From assembly GCA_902362805.1 (NCBI GenBank), contig CABIXY010000002.1, positions 496,001 through 560,000 of the forward strand: DNA of 64,000 nucleotides, written 5' to 3'. The translations under genes were made by a program, and so were the position numbers. Within the stretch, counting starts at the first letter, position 1; each line of letters opens with the position of its first letter. The DNA is from Eubacteriaceae bacterium (lineage in GTDB: Bacteria > Bacillota > Clostridia > Peptostreptococcales > Anaerovoracaceae). Positions 5,114 to 54,489 of this stretch are shown in pieces. Below the pieces are notes generated by a model that was not told the origin of the DNA, made no database searches, and worked only from the letters and a program-made list of their open reading frames with translations.

Positions 5114-8100
5114 ATGAATAAATTCAGAATGAATATAGACGGCAAAGAAGTATTCGGCCTTCCTGGACAGACGATCTTGGAAGTAGCGAGAGAAAATGAC
5201 ATTTTCATTCCTACTCTTTGCTTTGATGAGAGAACGACCATCTATGGCGCATGCGGTCTGTGCGTTGTGGAAGTAGAAGGCAACCCGAAACTCTGTAAGG
5301 CTTGTGCAACGACGATTTCCGATGGTATGGTTGTTATGACGAATACAGAACGCGTGATTGAATCCAGAAAGACCAATCTGGAGCTGTTAATTTCCAACCA
5401 CAATGGTGACTGCAAAGCGCCATGTTCTTTGAACTGTCCGGCAGGAACTGACTGCCAGGGTTATGTAGGCCTTATCGCCAACGGAGAATTCGAAGCAGCA
5501 CAGGAATTGATCAAGGACAAAATTCCACTTCCGGCTTCCATCGGAAGAGTCTGCCCGCACCCTTGCGAGGACAATTGCAGAAGAGCATTAATTGACGAAC
5601 CAATCAGCATTGCCTCTCTGAAGAGATTCGCAGCTGATTACGATATGATGGCAGAAGAAGCTTTTGTTCCGGAAATCGATGAGCCTACTGGAAAATCCGT
5701 GGCAATCATCGGAGGCGGTCCGATGGGACTTTCTGCAGCTTACTTCCTGAGACAGAAGGGACACGATGTTACCATTTTTGACGCAATGCCGAAACTGGGA
5801 GGCATGCTGAGATATGGCATCCCTGAGTACAGACTGCCAAAAGAAGTTCTCGATGACGAAATCGACATCATCGCTTCTATGGGCGTAGAGATCGTGCCAA
5901 ACACAAAGATCGGCGAAGATATGCCGTTTGAAACCATTCAGAATGACTTTGATGCGGTATTATTAGGTATCGGTGCCTGGGTTTCCACAGGCGTTGGCTG
6001 TCCTGGTGAAGACGCAGAAGGGGTTATCGGCGGTATCGACTTCCTGAGAAAGGTTGTCAGAAATGAGCATATCGACTTTGGCGAGAAGGTTGCCATTGTC
6101 GGCGGCGGAAATACAGCCATGGACGCCTGCAGAACTGCGGTCAGATTAGGCGCGAAAGAAGTCTACAACATCTACAGAAGAACCAAAGACGAGATGCCAG
6201 CAGATAGAATCGAAATTGAAGAAGGCGAAGAAGAAGGCGTAATCTTCAAGAACCTGACCAATCCGCTGGAAATCGTCAAGGACGAAAACGGTCATGTGAA
6301 ACAGGTGGTATTACAGGTTATGGAATTAGGTGAACCGGATGCTTCAGGCAGAAGAAGACCAGTTCCAGTAGAAGGCAAGACGGAGACCATCGATGTAGAC
6401 ACCATGATTCTGGCCATCGGTCAGGCTGTTGATGCGACTCCTTTTGAACTCGATAAGACGAGAAAAAATGCCATCGCATATGATCCGGATACCTTCATGA
6501 CCAGCATCCCAGGCGTATTTGCTGGCGGCGACTGCGGTAATGATAAGATTTCCATTGCGATCGAAGCCATTGCAGATGCTAACAAAGCAGCAATCGTCAT
6601 CGACTCCTACTTAAACGGTGAAGCGGTCAGCTATGAAAAACCGTTTGTCGTAGAGAGAGACGACGTAACAGAAAAAACTTTTGAAGATAGAGAAAGACTC
6701 TGCAGAGAGAAGGCAGACCAGCTGACTGCTGCAGAGAGAAAAGATAACTTCTCTGAAGTCGTGTATGATGGCTTGACTGAAGATCAGGCTGTTGCTGAAG
6801 CATCCAGATGTTTGGAATGCGGATGTCACGATTATTACGAATGTAAGCTGATTGACTTCGCTAATCAGTACGATGTAAAACCGGAGAGACTTGCTGGCGA
6901 TAAGAACATGATTGAATTTGAAGATGATCATCCGTTTATCGTCAGAGATCCAAACAAGTGTATCCTGTGCGGACTCTGCGTAAGAGTTTGTGACGAGGTT
7001 ATGGGCGTTGGTGCGCTGGGTCTTGTGAACAGAGGATTTGATACTGTTGTAAAACCAAACATGGAAAAATCACTCTGTGAGTCAGGCTGCGAATCTTGCG
7101 GACAGTGTGTAAGCGTTTGTCCGACTGGCGCTCTGCAGGAGAGACTGACGATACAGAAGGAAGTACCTCTTGAAACAGATATCACAGAGACGACTTGCTC
7201 CTACTGCTCCGTCGGCTGTACTTTGGATTTAGAATCTTATGGTGACATGCTGATCAAGGCAAATCCTTCCAAGGAAGGCGTAGTCAACGCCGGAATCTGC
7301 TGCGGCAAAGGGAAGTGGGGCTTCGATGCAGCACTCCTTGAGGGCAAAGAAGTAGATCCGATGATAAAAGACGGCGACGGCTTTAGAATGACAGATTATC
7401 ACGAAGCTATCGTCATGGCTGCAAAGAAGATGGAAGCTGTCAGAGTGAGACATGGAAATAGCGCTATCGCTGTTGCAATTTCTGACAGGTATACTAATGA
7501 AGAAGCCTACGCGATGAAGAAGTTCGCCCAGACGATCGGCGCTAAGACTTTCTGCTTTAATGCAAGGCACAATGCACTTTCCGATGTGCTGGGAGTAAAT
7601 GCATCACCGAATACGATTGACGAATTACTGCGTACAGATGTCATCATCGTACCGGGTTACATCAAGAATAGAAACGCTGTAGTATGGAATAAAATCAAAC
7701 AGGCTGCAGAAGCAGGGGTAAAGGTTGTTGCCATCAACACGCCGGAAGCACAGACTGCTTTTGAATTTGCTGAAAGAGTCATCGATACAGACAACAGCAC
7801 AGCATTCCTTGCGGGAATGGCTAAGGCTCTGATTGACATGGGCAAAACTTCAAATGTTGAAGGCTTCGATGCTTTCGCTGCCTCCGTTGCTGATGCCGAA
7901 GTCTGTGAGGAAATCAAGGCTGTCGCTGAACTCTATGCGGGAGCTAAGAAGGCGATGTTCGTATTCCAGCAGAACGTGGTATCCTGTGAAGCAGCGGCTC
8001 TGATTGCAGATATCGCCCTGCTGACTGGACACATCGGTAAGCCTAGAGACGGAATCTTAGAAGTAAAAGCAAAGAACAACTCTCAGGGTCTTGTGGACAT

Positions 8101-11253: not shown

Positions 11254-11774
11254 ACTTCTCTGGAAATACTTGAATAAAATTGTGGATAACTTCTATCTTG
11301 ACAAGCGTGAAAAAACGTGTAACCGTTGGTATTTCTTGATTGTACTGATTTTAATTATCCACATGTCATTGTGAAGAAAATTGTATACAATTTGGAAATA
11401 ATTGTGCATAAGATGTGGAAAACGCTAAATTTAGGGAAAGTTATCATGTGGAAAAAGGTGCGACAAACTTAGACAAAGAAACAAAAAATCGGTCAAATTA
11501 AAAAAAGAAATTTCAGAATTTGAACGGCAGATTGCATTACTGCGTGGTTACTCAGTAAGAAAAAAGTAAGAATTTAAATATTCTGAACTTTTTGGTACAA
11601 TAGACGTACTGATCTTGTGATATCGTCGCAAGGAGGGATTGTCATGGTATGATGGACTAAAAGTATACATTGTATTTTTGCCCAAACGTGTAAATTTTTG
11701 GTGAATTATGCTATACTGGAAAAATAGTTTTTATTGGCGGCAGAGAGCCGCTGTGATTGGAGGTTTATTAAAGA
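11254..11774. other. Non-coding AT-rich gap upstream of the hydrogenase genes
   Basis: This 521-bp stretch has no convincing gene. Its first 200 bp hold the DnaA-box cluster. A short lysine-rich open frame (about 11470-11568) has no start codon or ribosome site. An AAGGAGGG followed by ATG-GTA-stop occurs near 11630-11652. GGAGGT at 11759-11764 serves the gene at 11775. Confidence 0.5.
11281..11455. promoter_or_regulatory. Cluster of five DnaA boxes
   Basis: Two perfect DnaA boxes TTATCCACA occur at 11281-11289 (minus) and 11355-11363 (plus). Three more match TTWTNCACA: TTATGCACA at 11403-11411 (minus), and TTTTCCACA at 11414-11422 and 11447-11455 (both minus). The surroundings are AT-rich and non-coding. 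No dnaA or dnaN gene is nearby, so a DnaA-titrating or regulatory cluster is more likely than the origin itself. Confidence 0.65.
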
Positions 11775-20131: not shown

Positions 20132-20450
20132 GATGTTCTCCTTTAACCGTATAATCAAATCCTAAATTCATGTATGATTATACCATGGTATACATCAAAA
20201 AGAAAGAATAAATATTATTTGAGAGAGACAAAAAAGCCGAGGATTTAGGCGCATAGCTGTTTTTTGCCTTATTTTTTAACGGTTGCCGTTGTCACTGTAT
20301 ATGATGCATAATTGTTTGTAAAATATTACCAAAATATCTTTAAGACATGCCTTTTGTGGACAAACGTACGTTCTTGTGGTATACTATAATTTAATTTCAT
20401 TAAGTCTATTAGAGTTAATGGTAAGTCGAAAAGAGAAGCAGGTGAATGAT

Positions 20451-21239
20451 ATGACAGAACGATATGAGCCACCCTTTTCCATGACAGAGAGTATTATGAA
20501 CATGGTGATTGAGATTGGTGAACTGACAGGACAGATTACCGCACATGATCAGTTGTCAACCAATCCGAGGCTGCGTCGCGAAAATAGAATCAAGACGATC
20601 CATTCATCTTTGGCAATTGAGAACAACACGCTGTCCTTAGGGCAGGTTACAGCTGTCATAGAAGGAAAAAAAGTGTTAGCACCACCGCAGGATATACGGG
20701 AAGTAAAAAATGCTTATGAAGCTTATGAAAGATTGCAGAACCTGAATCCGTACTCTTTAGAAGATTTGTTAGAAGCCCATCGTTATATGATGAGCGGGTT
20801 AATAAAGGAAGCAGGTGTATTCAGGAGCAAAAATGCAGGCGTATATAGCGGGACAGAGCTGATTCACGCAGGATCACCGGCAAACTATGTCCCGGAGTTA
20901 ATGTATAATCTCTTTACTTGGATGAGGAATTCACAAATACACCTTTTGATAAAGTCCTGTATTTTTCATTATGAATTTGAATTTATCCATCCTTTTGCCG
21001 ATGGTAACGGACGGACAGGAAGACTTTGGCATTCATTGCTATTACAAAAATGGCAGTCTTTTTTCGCTTGGCTTCCAGTAGAAACGATGATTCACGAACA
21101 TCAGGAAGCATATTATGAAGCCATCAATGCTTCCAATACGGCTTGCGAATGTACCATATTTGTAGAGTTCATGCTCGGGATGATTAAGTCTACATTGGAA
21201 GAAATTGTAGACAGCCAAGGTGTATATCAGGACAATTGA
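20451..21239 (+). CDS. Fic-family protein, class II (auto-inhibited)
   Basis: The Fic core motif HPFADGNGRTGR (about residue 180) is fully canonical, so AMP (or other NMP) transfer is expected. The N-terminal inhibitory helix has the S/T-x-x-x-E-G/N motif as SLAIEN (about residue 47), which places it in class II, where the protein blocks its own ATP site. The 262-aa start at 20451 (MTERYEPPF) is preferred; the longer GTG frame from 20376 would begin inside a TATAAT promoter box. It is a single gene between argR and the ruv operon. Confidence 0.9.
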   Translation: MTERYEPPFSMTESIMNMVIEIGELTGQITAHDQLSTNPRLRRENRIKTIHSSLAIENNTLSLGQVTAVIEGKKVLAPPQDIREVKNAYEAYERLQNLNPYSLEDLLEAHRYMMSGLIKEAGVFRSKNAGVYSGTELIHAGSPANYVPELMYNLFTWMRNSQIHLLIKSCIFHYEFEFIHPFADGNGRTGRLWHSLLLQKWQSFFAWLPVETMIHEHQEAYYEAINASNTACECTIFVEFMLGMIKSTLEEIVDSQGVYQDN

Positions 21240-24628: not shown

Positions 24629-24747
24629 TTGATTTGAGGTTATAATATGATATAATACACGCATCAATCCTACGACCTTGTCGCAAGGAAGCGTTCATTG
24701 AATCATGAATTTCGATTGTATTTCCAAAGGAATATTCATGATATAAT
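24629..24747 (+). repeat. Structured intergenic element, copy 1
   Basis: A promoter-like TTGATT-N16-TATAAT (24629-24656) is followed by an 85-nt segment and a second TATAAT (24742-24747). Predicted stems: ACGC 24659-24662 with GCGT 24691-24694; CGAC 24673-24676 with GTCG 24680-24683; and ATCATGAAT 24702-24710 with ATTCATGAT 24734-24742. A second copy at 54392-54489 keeps each pairing with different bases. It directly precedes the antitoxin/Fic pair. Confidence 0.7.
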
Positions 24748-24774
24748 AAAAGGTAAAAGCGAGGCATGATTTTT

Positions 24775-25299
24775 ATGGATTATATGGTTTTATCGGAATA
24801 TAAAAATTTGCTTGAACGCAAATTAAAGTTGGAGACAGAGCTACAGTCCCTTGTGCGTGGCTACATTTCAAAAAAGACGATTAAGGGAAACACTTACTGC
24901 TATCTGCAGAATAGGGCTGACGGAAAACTGACAAGTCAATATTTAAAGAACGAGGACGTTGGTACGGTCACAGAACAGATTGCACGTCGCAAACAATATG
25001 AGGCAGAATTACCAAAGCTAAAAGCTCGTCTCAGTGAACTGGAACAAGCTGCGGAGTTACTTGGGAAAAATATCAGTCGGCAACTCATGCTTTTGAAGCT
25101 TAGTACAGGGATGGATAGTTTGACAGCGGATCAAAAGAAGCAAAGTACGTCCTTTGCCAGTGCTATGAACGCTGTCGAGGGAATCTCAGTCAGCGAACAA
25201 ACAGCGCAGGATATTGCAGCCTGGCAAAACGGAAGCAAACCTTTCCTTTCGATTTTTGAAGCGACGCTCAAGAGGTATGGTTTCTCTGCGGAGGTGTGA
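24775..25299 (+). CDS. Putative antitoxin with VbhA-like C-terminal motif, partner of the Fic protein
   Basis: The N-terminal ~115 residues form charged helices with coiled-coil character (LERKLKLETELQSL; YEAELPKLKARLSELEQA). The C-terminal ~55 residues resemble the small Fic antitoxin VbhA: an inhibitory-helix-like AMNAVEGI followed by a helical region ending in IFEATLKRYG. The conserved Ser/Thr of the S/T-x-x-x-E-G motif is Met here. The stop is one base before the Fic start, which supports a cognate pair. GAGG at 24761 favours the ATG at 24775 over 24766. The identification rests on motif and context. Confidence 0.6.
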   Translation: MDYMVLSEYKNLLERKLKLETELQSLVRGYISKKTIKGNTYCYLQNRADGKLTSQYLKNEDVGTVTEQIARRKQYEAELPKLKARLSELEQAAELLGKNISRQLMLLKLSTGMDSLTADQKKQSTSFASAMNAVEGISVSEQTAQDIAAWQNGSKPFLSIFEATLKRYGFSAEV

Positions 25300-25300
25300 A

Positions 25301-26041
25301 ATGCGAGCCCCCTATTTATATGATGACGCAGACGTACTAATAAATCTCGCGGACATCAAAGATTCGGAACTGTTGCGCAAGGCTGAGGCGGACATTACCA
25401 ATCTGGCGATGACAGGCATCTATAATCGGCAGTATGAGAAATTCAACACGGATACACTCAAAGATATCCACCGCACTATCTTTGGCCAGATTTATGATTG
25501 GGCGGGAGAGTTTCGCACCATCCAGATGATCAAGTCAGAAGACATTTTGGGCGGTGATACGGTGCGCTATGCATATCCCAAGGAGATTAAAAGGCAATTG
25601 GCAGTGTCGATGAAAGAAATTGCCAAACTGAAGCGAAACGGTCAGAATGACAAAGACGTTGTATTTCGCCTGGTCAGAATCATCGCCCAGATTTGGCAGA
25701 CGCACCCCTTTCGGGAAGGTAATACCCGCAGTGTTATCGTCTTTGCGGTATTGCTTGCCAAGTGGCTCGGGTTCGAGGTGGATCACGAACTATTTAAAGG
25801 GCATTCTGCTTATGTCCGCAGCGCCCTGGTTTGGGCATCGCAAGGAATGTACGCAAAGTATGAATATTTGGAACGTATTTTCTTTGATGCGATTCTCCAT
25901 GTCGAGATAACTTCTGATGAAAAGGATGTACCTGCCGCTGGGAAATATGAGAAGGTCGGCGACTACCTGGTACGGGATTACAAAGAGCGACCGCACGAAT
26001 ATCAGGATCATGAAAAATCCCAAAATAGGAGCAAGAAATGA
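25301..26041 (+). CDS. Fic/DOC-family toxin-like protein
   Basis: The 246-aa protein has a Fic domain with motif HPFREGNTRSV (about 147-157). The catalytic His and acidic metal ligand are present, while the second Gly of canonical GNGR is Thr, as in many clostridial Fic toxins. The flap region (GQIYDWAGEFRT) is intact. No inhibitory helix is seen in the protein itself, so it would be class I with its antitoxin encoded upstream. GGAGGTG ends 5 bp before this ATG. A basic tail (ENYKERPHEYQDHEKSQNRSKK-like) follows the domain. Confidence 0.82.
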   Translation: MRAPYLYDDADVLINLADIKDSELLRKAEADITNLAMTGIYNRQYEKFNTDTLKDIHRTIFGQIYDWAGEFRTIQMIKSEDILGGDTVRYAYPKEIKRQLAVSMKEIAKLKRNGQNDKDVVFRLVRIIAQIWQTHPFREGNTRSVIVFAVLLAKWLGFEVDHELFKGHSAYVRSALVWASQGMYAKYEYLERIFFDAILHVEITSDEKDVPAAGKYEKVGDYLVRDYKERPHEYQDHEKSQNRSKK

Positions 26042-27886: not shown

Positions 27887-27985
27887 ATTTGTAACAAATT
27901 GGAATTTATCATACAGGAAGCGTTTAATGGAGCATAGGCCTTGTTTTACAGTTTGATGTAAGTATTTTAGGGGGAAGTAATCGCT

Positions 27986-54358: not shown

Positions 54359-54391
54359 CTGGAATGAATTGAAAGAGAGGTGAAAGCACGG

Positions 54392-54489
54392 TATAATGAA
54401 CGCAAACGATCTTACAGCGTTGCTGCAAGGAAGCGTTCATTGAATCATGTGCTACGACTATATTCTCAAAGGAATGCACATGGTATAAT
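54392..54489 (+). repeat. Structured intergenic element, copy 2
   Basis: TATAAT (54392-54397), an 86-nt segment and TATAAT (54484-54489), with the same plan as 24651-24747. Stems: AACGC 54399-54403 with GCGTT 54433-54437; CAGC 54415-54418 with GCTG 54422-54425; CATGTGC 54446-54452 with GCACATG 54476-54482. The sequence GCAAGGAAGCGTTCATTGAA between stems is identical in both copies. It heads the second accessory island. Confidence 0.7.

Follow-up and report, generated by a model that had tools for sequence, protein, structure and literature searches.

A repeat family of Emergencia and its relatives that probably inserts at a single position within sigma-A-type promoters

The small repeats known from bacteria mostly have no strict position within intergenic space. 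BOX/RUP-type repeats differ in sequence and structure from the family described here, the Emergencia repeat, and we know of no -10 targeting among them. What the two share is that they are small, modular, intergenic and free of genes (compare PMC3049150 for Streptococcus). REP sequences are defined by a tetranucleotide, GTAG or a near variant, directly 5' of a palindrome, and the guide concept formulated for IS200/IS605 and REP elements places a guide sequence 5' of a hairpin (PMC8266576). REP/BIME repeats with their TnpA_REP (RAYT) transposases resemble the Emergencia repeat in being short, palindromic and intergenic, with many copies per genome and often in tandem, and in having pairing stems and a conserved motif directly 5' of the hairpin, in the place of the guide (PMC8266576). 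Unlike them, the Emergencia repeat has ATTGAANC instead of GTAG, contains three stems in fixed order and sits exactly at the promoter -10, and the genome with most copies shows no detectable Y1 transposase. Its likeness to non-autonomous IS200/IS605 derivatives lies in subterminal hairpins without terminal inverted repeats, in insertion beside a short fixed sequence and perhaps in a guide-like sequence 5' of the right hairpin that is complementary to the site after the hairpin. Unlike in those derivatives, the target would be the host -10 hexamer within a promoter, and the Y1 transposases that some carriers have show no linkage to the repeats, other carriers having yielded none.

The unit, which measures about 80-120 bp, runs TATAAT, stem 1, stem 2, ATTGAANC, stem 3 and then the next TATAAT; in alignment, its full order is TATAAT, a hexamer, A, a variable loop, stem 2, (C)AAGGAAG, the complementary hexamer, ATTGAANC, stem 3 and CATGN. 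In stem 1, GNTATAAT plus the hexamer pairs with the complementary hexamer plus ATTGAANC, with one A-A and one T-G position inside, and the arms vary between copies (GAACGC/GCGTTC, GATTCC/GGAATC, GGTTCC/GGAACC and others). ATTGAANC also complements the GNTATAAT on its right, and with this complementarity on both sides it can be claimed by either of two competing hairpins. Where tandem units meet, they have a single hexamer in common. In a 47-copy alignment, the stem 3 palindrome is preceded by ATTGAA and two bases, mostly TC; elsewhere AC is found as well. Inspection by eye of aligned units revealed no terminal inverted repeats, the inverted repeats being the internal stems.

Two copies lie in the window, the stretch of 64,000 nucleotides from a Eubacteriaceae bacterium that was analyzed, and a 23-mer common to both occurs twice there and in none of 100 shuffles. 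Copy 1 (24649..24747, + strand; match to covariance model R1 at 24649-24704, 61.6 bits) is a single unit extending from GATATAAT to GATATAAT. A putative host-promoter -35, TTGATT (24629..24634, +), for which the sequence and the family-wide -35 enrichment in left flanks argue, lies 16 bases 5' of its TATAAT. The left TATAAT and the hexamer ACACGC form the 5' arm of stem 1 in the pairing scheme (24651..24662, +), followed by stem 2, CGAC/GTCG, backed by pair counts (24673..24683, +), by the 3' arm of stem 1 with the conserved ATTGAATC, which complements the GNTATAAT of either flank (24691..24704, +), and by stem 3 with the right GATATAAT (24705..24747, +). Stem 3 is assigned from its pairing in the family, and the behavior of right hexamers discussed below suggests that this right GATATAAT probably belongs to the host promoter as its -10. 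With AATACACGC as its left arm, stem 1 of this copy has two broken pairs. Copy 2 (54390..54489, +; R1 match 54390-54446, 76.6 bits) is a single unit with a perfect stem 1 hexamer. On the same grounds as in copy 1, TTGAAA at 54369..54374 (+), 17 bases 5' of its TATAAT, is a putative -35; stem 2, CAGC/GCTG, supported by pair counts, lies at 54415..54425 (+), the 3' arm of stem 1 with ATTGAATC at 54433..54446 (+), and stem 3, assigned from the sequence and the family pairing, with the right GGTATAAT at 54447..54489 (+). Both copies match the promoter pattern of the family (TTGATT-16-TATAAT and TTGAAA-17-TATAAT), copy 2 without TRTG.

The positions of these two copies, the change of stem 2 between them and that of stem 3 (AAT/ATT in one, TGC/GCA in the other) are as described in a previous sequence-only reading. 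That reading also saw an unchanged single-stranded stretch, which has to be revised: GCGTTCATT forms the 3' arm of that stem 1 in which AATGAACGC, at the left TATAAT, is its partner. A third trace that it suspected near 27916 (27916-27930) has no adjoining left TATAAT and gave no covariance-model match at E up to 5; it may be chance. A decayed third copy, GGTACAAT ... GGTATGAT, lies on the + strand at about 11594..11653; it was missed by the model and emerged from pairwise alignment with E. timonensis, in which it is syntenic with a two-unit array. Being a decayed copy, the pair at 11594 was rejected as an empty site. Copy 2 was discarded as an empty-site test, since E. timonensis carries other DNA there and the upstream DNA of G020 is unalignable. 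At the locus of copy 1, the E. timonensis region 3' of queA differs. Downstream of copy 1, at 24766-26041 of the window, a 177-aa ORF without Pfam match overlaps a Fic-family gene, and E. timonensis has different DNA at the corresponding site.

Outside the window, an exact 20-mer shared by the copies was found in 49 stretches (51 sites) of genome contigs, nearly all from Emergencia timonensis, Clostridium aminobutyricum, Sinanaerobacter, Anaerovorax and MAGs; a single match in Anoxybacillus stands without the other parts of the element and looks like chance. Viral contigs gave no match to the exact 20-mer or to one variant pattern, nor did plasmids and phages by blastn at E 1e-5. By model R1, which spans 58 positions and 17 pairs, copies number at least 127 in E. 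timonensis (G001), at least 75 in G007, at least 38 in G003, at least 30 each in G002 and G005, and at least 4-16 each in seven other genomes, all of which are lower bounds with 150 candidates scored per genome. In a family sample, 17 of 148 genomes had R1 matches (E up to 1e-6), six carriers having been known beforehand, while a class sample gave matches in 2 of 391 genomes, one of them E. timonensis. The 208 copies in 1.46 Mb, consisting mostly of loci chosen for holding copies and including only 400 kb of E. timonensis taken regardless of the repeat, fall into 98 arrays; in 42 of them the model sees one unit, next to which a partial one sometimes stands, the largest array has 9 units, and unit periods are 78-90 bp. 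These copies are what was carried forward from 210 model matches, two weak opposite-strand matches (L208 and L220) having been dropped. Rfam gave no match in the window at the gathering score, and at relaxed score the sole match to copy 2 had an E of 8.7 on the opposite strand. No such repeat and no -10-targeted insertion is named among the papers listed by an open-licence literature search. The repeat family of Emergencia and relatives is real and unlisted.

The covariance-model search of related genomes that the sequence-only reading had proposed brought many further copies, and the covariation it had suspected was confirmed on many copies. In a first test, 9 of 17 pairs were changed on both sides (51 distinct rows) compared to 0-2 when the partner was slid by 1-3 columns. 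Because these first alignments (A1 and A2) were mostly made of copies preselected for at most one stem 1 mismatch, the test was repeated with copies anchored on the right half. Of the 160 such copies that have the left TATAAT, 120 pair perfectly over the stem 1 hexamer and 156, these included, show no more than two mismatches there; the four with more than two were dropped from cell counts and shuffles, and a further 26 candidates have no left TATAAT. The hexamer types are many, including GAACGC, GATTCC, GGTTCC, GGTTCT, AGTTCC, GAACAC and GATTTC. Over the 156 copies, the 936 stem 1 cells comprise 888 Watson-Crick pairs, 37 mismatches and, rarer still, 11 G-T pairs. Pairing in stem 1 is above all 200 shuffles at each of the six positions, and pairing in stem 3 (139 copies) is likewise above every one of 200. 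Stems 1 and 3 covary strongly.

By the statistics of their left flanks, the arrays coincide precisely with the -10 hexamer in promoters of the sigma-A type. In 91 left flanks, from the 98 arrays minus duplicates, short flanks and flanks with a preceding unit, a TRTGN motif adjoins the TATAAT (T 79%, R 92%, T 89%, G 90%), and a TTGACA-like -35 box (at least 4/6) occurs with a spacer of 17 in 17 flanks and of 18 in 14, versus a mean of 4.4 at the 24 other spacers compared (8-15 and 20-35). Without eight remnant-like flanks (n=83), the figures are T 83, R 92, T 89 and G 89% for the motif, and 16 and 13 versus 3.9 for the box. A same-strand ORF lies downstream, at a median distance of 36 bp, in 80 of 92 arrays compared to 53% expected; these counts use plain, uncurated ORFs and omit five arrays at locus edges and one inside a predicted ORF. 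The downstream genes that could be identified have no common function. The unselected 400 kb of E. timonensis contain 15 arrays and two free TRTGN-TATAAT sites outside predicted ORFs, a count made with a generous ORF mask that hides much intergenic DNA. With this placement, the left arm of stem 1 spans promoter positions -12 to -1, upstream of the expected start site.

The hexamers on the two sides of an array are not equally constant. TATAAT is found in 94 of 98 left-most and 65 of 67 internal positions, and in 39 of 65 right-most ones, where the remaining 26 comprise 14 near variants (TATAGT, TATATT, TATGAT, TATACT, etc.) and 12 sequences that are not hexamer-like. This asymmetry has a p of 7e-8 over all 65 and of 2e-4 without the 12 non-hexamers (39/53), in a set from which 72 of 204 distinct copies were omitted for showing no stem 3 by a simple 4-base rule. 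Since the right hexamer varies, and equals the host's TATACT at the HD-domain site described below, the comparison suggests that the unit brings its own TATAAT and probably enters with TRTGN on its left and the host -10 hexamer immediately on its right. It is mainly the HD-domain site together with these statistics that points to this polarity, and part of the asymmetry may have other reasons, namely a bias of R1 to the left TATAAT or selection on a working -10. The complementarity of ATTGAANC to GNTATAAT is interrupted by one A-A and one T-G, and N and N' are associated. In line with the guide role considered below, GT precedes TATAAT in first copies in 10 of 15 cases with guide ATTGAAAC and in 3 of 59 with guide ATTGAATC. 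This association is in part confounded with genome, as guide A follows T in 2 of 5 cases in G001 itself.

Where orthologous promoters are compared, an array occupies the -10 in some genomes and is missing from the counterparts in others; the host -35, spacer and extended -10 are kept 5' of a TATAAT, and a second TATAAT-like hexamer follows on the right. At the promoter of a gene identified by Pfam as RuvC, a full single unit is present in G008, one of 11 sequences compared. In G158, TGTGCTATAAT is directly joined to the shared downstream DNA with no unit; TRTGN-TATACT without a unit is found in E. timonensis, G012, G160, G156, G155, G157 and the window, and G159 has no unit either, while G161 may have a remnant. 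In the window, about 860 bp with an extra ORF (20377-21239), absent from E. timonensis, separate the ruvC promoter from ruvC. An HD-domain gene is preceded by a three-unit array in E. timonensis and by TGTGATATACT without a unit in G008, G158 and G156, where the junctions are clean and the matches to both flanks overlap by 7 bases. The left hexamer of the E. timonensis array is TATAAT and the right one TATACT, which is also the host's TATACT. G160, G012 and G155 align less closely at this site and lack the array by length, and for G157 and G159 just one of the two flanks aligns. For a PfkB-like gene with a four-unit array, the promoter stands alone in G012 (TATACT), G156 (TATAAT) and G008 (TATACT), and G159, G160, G157 and G155 are unalignable across it. 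A MutS gene with one unit has eight orthologs, none with a unit and six with a -10-like box nearby, the upstream flank being unalignable. An R1 search of relatives' loci covering these four sites found a unit only in G008 at RuvC, and one weak match elsewhere, in L119 (E 1.1).

A fifth comparison was withdrawn as a clean empty site. Upstream of an iron alcohol-dehydrogenase-like gene, G081 has a unit and a partial second one (L183), and G570 has TATGTTATAAT and no unit with both flanks aligned; however, the same promoter carries a full unit in G571 and a truncated one in G002 (units at L264:1195-1254 and L274:2680-2737). The stem 1 hexamers are GATTCC in G081, GAATGC in G571 and GAACGC in G002. 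Both a loss in G570 and repeated hits on this promoter are possible. With three species holding differing hexamers and G570 none, the promoter is a possible insertion hot spot. A second G081 copy, before a thioesterase-like gene, corresponds to an element-free promoter in G570 without a clean junction and to a possible remnant in G571. Taken over the three clean sites, the weaker MutS site and the flank statistics, mobility and targeting of the promoter -10 are well supported by sequence comparison.

We therefore consider it likely that the Emergencia repeat is a non-autonomous mobile repeat that enters sigma-A-type promoters at a single position, with the extended -10 (TRTGN) on one side and the -10 hexamer on the other, along the direction of transcription. 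The left TATAAT would be the unit's and the right hexamer the host -10, the host promoter keeping or gaining a consensus -10, and the downstream hexamer would receive the "TG" of an extended -10 from the CATGN of stem 3. With a consensus -10 kept and this TG supplied, insertion would be nearly harmless, and the promoter seems to be still working afterwards. The mobile form may be a folded single DNA strand, by analogy with IS200/IS605 or REP elements; it is favored because the left arm of stem 1 should lie outside the RNA, wobble pairs are rare and terminal inverted repeats are lacking, and the case for a single-strand mechanism is one of geometry. In such a mechanism, ATTGAANC, 5' of the stem 3 hairpin, could guide the choice of cleavage or target site, and a candidate enzyme would be supplied in trans. 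We also offer, tentatively and as a possibility that we would not favor, that base pairing of the guide ATTGAANC with GNTATAAT lets a single-stranded hairpin element invade the transcription bubble. The putative insertion point between -13 and -12 would coincide with the upstream boundary of the region that RNA polymerase melts, so that the open promoter itself might be the single-stranded target, and each insertion might rebuild a consensus -10. We know of no other mobile-element family aimed at promoter open complexes; if true, a bubble-invading element would be the first.

Three other explanations account for part of these observations. Taken by itself, the covariation would also be compatible with a novel structured cis-regulatory RNA, similar to a leader or riboswitch, that is transcribed from the left TATAAT and controls the downstream gene, and such an RNA would agree with same-strand genes at a median of 36 bp to the ORF and with stems that are also predicted in RNA from the expected start. 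Yet the left arm of stem 1 takes up the stretch from the -10 to the expected start and would be missing from an RNA made by that promoter; 42 of 98 arrays comprise one unit by the model, a partial neighbor standing beside some. The excess of mismatches over G-T pairs (37 versus 11 of 936 cells), up to nine tandem units, functionally unalike downstream genes, presence or absence at orthologous promoters of unrelated genes and the silence of Rfam are further arguments against an RNA, which we regard as highly improbable. The sequence-only reading had left the choice between a regulatory RNA and a hairpin mobile element; copy number, tandem arrays and empty sites speak for the mobile element and RNA is disfavored.

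A classical MITE, for which a DDE transposase would have duplicated a TATAAT target on insertion, would likewise be small and non-coding and have an AT-rich hexamer on both sides. Its inverted repeats would not be expected to be internal with none terminal, as they are here, and duplicated hexamers would start identical, whereas left and right ones differ in constancy; orientation is moreover fixed relative to the promoter, and we judge this origin unlikely. Ancient promoter modules, inherited vertically, lost in some lineages and locally amplified by replication slippage, would explain tandem periods of 78-90 bp, the common descent of one window copy and an E. timonensis array, and the units of G571 and G002 at the G081 site with none in G570, although the different hexamers there (GATTCC, GAATGC, GAACGC) fit separate insertions too. 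Against inheritance stand patchy bursts, with at least 127 copies in one genome and 4-9 in others, a full unit at the RuvC promoter in one of 11 sequences compared, the HD, PfkB and MutS sites without a unit in any relative's locus searched, and exact rejoining at the -10 in clean empty orthologs, so that vertical inheritance of modules has little chance of being the explanation. A mobile repeat directed to the promoter -10 is the reading that we retain.

Assignment to a described class of mobile element was attempted through enzymes and motifs. No Y1 transposase (PF01797) was detected in E. timonensis, with its at least 127 copies, or in G003, G004, G007, G009 and G011. Six of 12 carrier genomes do have PF01797 matches, and the seven loci around these contain no repeat match; one of them, L051, read as ORFs, encodes a 150-aa protein, which is the size of an IS200-type TnpA. 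Within 5 kb, the loci examined contain no gene-bearing copy that could be autonomous. IS91-like Y2 transposases (PF04986) were found in none of eight genomes, control genomes being equally silent. A REP/RAYT assignment was rejected by motif, the 47-copy alignment having ATTGAA and two bases instead of GTAG, and by gene, since genomes with REP sequences have a TnpA_REP gene that the repeats usually flank, whereas no such gene was found in E. timonensis and the PF01797 loci of other carriers are without repeats. Where the sequence-only reading had offered a REP/IS200-like mobile element as an option, mobility is supported and membership in REP or IS200 is not, with GTAG lacking and a Y1 transposase undetected in E. 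timonensis. Subterminal hairpins without terminal inverted repeats, seen in the consensus structure and stem 3 pairing, are as in IS200/IS605 derivatives, which a Y1 transposase moves by way of a single-stranded circle; no Y1 transposase linked to the Emergencia repeat was found. Integron attC sites have R boxes (RYYYAAC and GTTRRRY) at their hairpin ends, which the stem 1 arms do not match by eye; a DDE-type MITE is disfavored by the lack of terminal inverted repeats by eye and by left and right hexamers that differ at several sites, and a riboswitch or known RNA was rejected for want of an Rfam match.

The Emergencia repeat lands on a single defined promoter step, and some genomes contain dozens of such insertions. 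It lends itself to studying how promoters are located by a mobile element, whether single-strand transposition uses transcription bubbles as targets, and how insertions, including those at ruvC and mutS, retune gene expression in gut bacteria.

Length variants occur within the family. Six long copies have 119-131 bp between arms, and at least five of them carry a nested mini-repeat in the stem 2 loop. This nested family reads GTTGCC|TTTTTGCC...GGCAAAACGGACAGC.GGAGCG...GTTGC, flanked on either side by GTTGCC-like sequence, and was seen at L035 (about 2400-2490), L031 (about 1190-1255), L002 (reverse complement, 6380-6508), L171, L172, L178 and L213; in C. aminobutyricum, two nested mini-repeats stand in tandem. 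Another subfamily, from MAG ABMPRH_132_0 (G005; L014, L015, L016, L020, L025, L043 and L046), is distinguished by some 25 additional bases that separate stem 1 from stem 2 and, by eye, resemble a hairpin.
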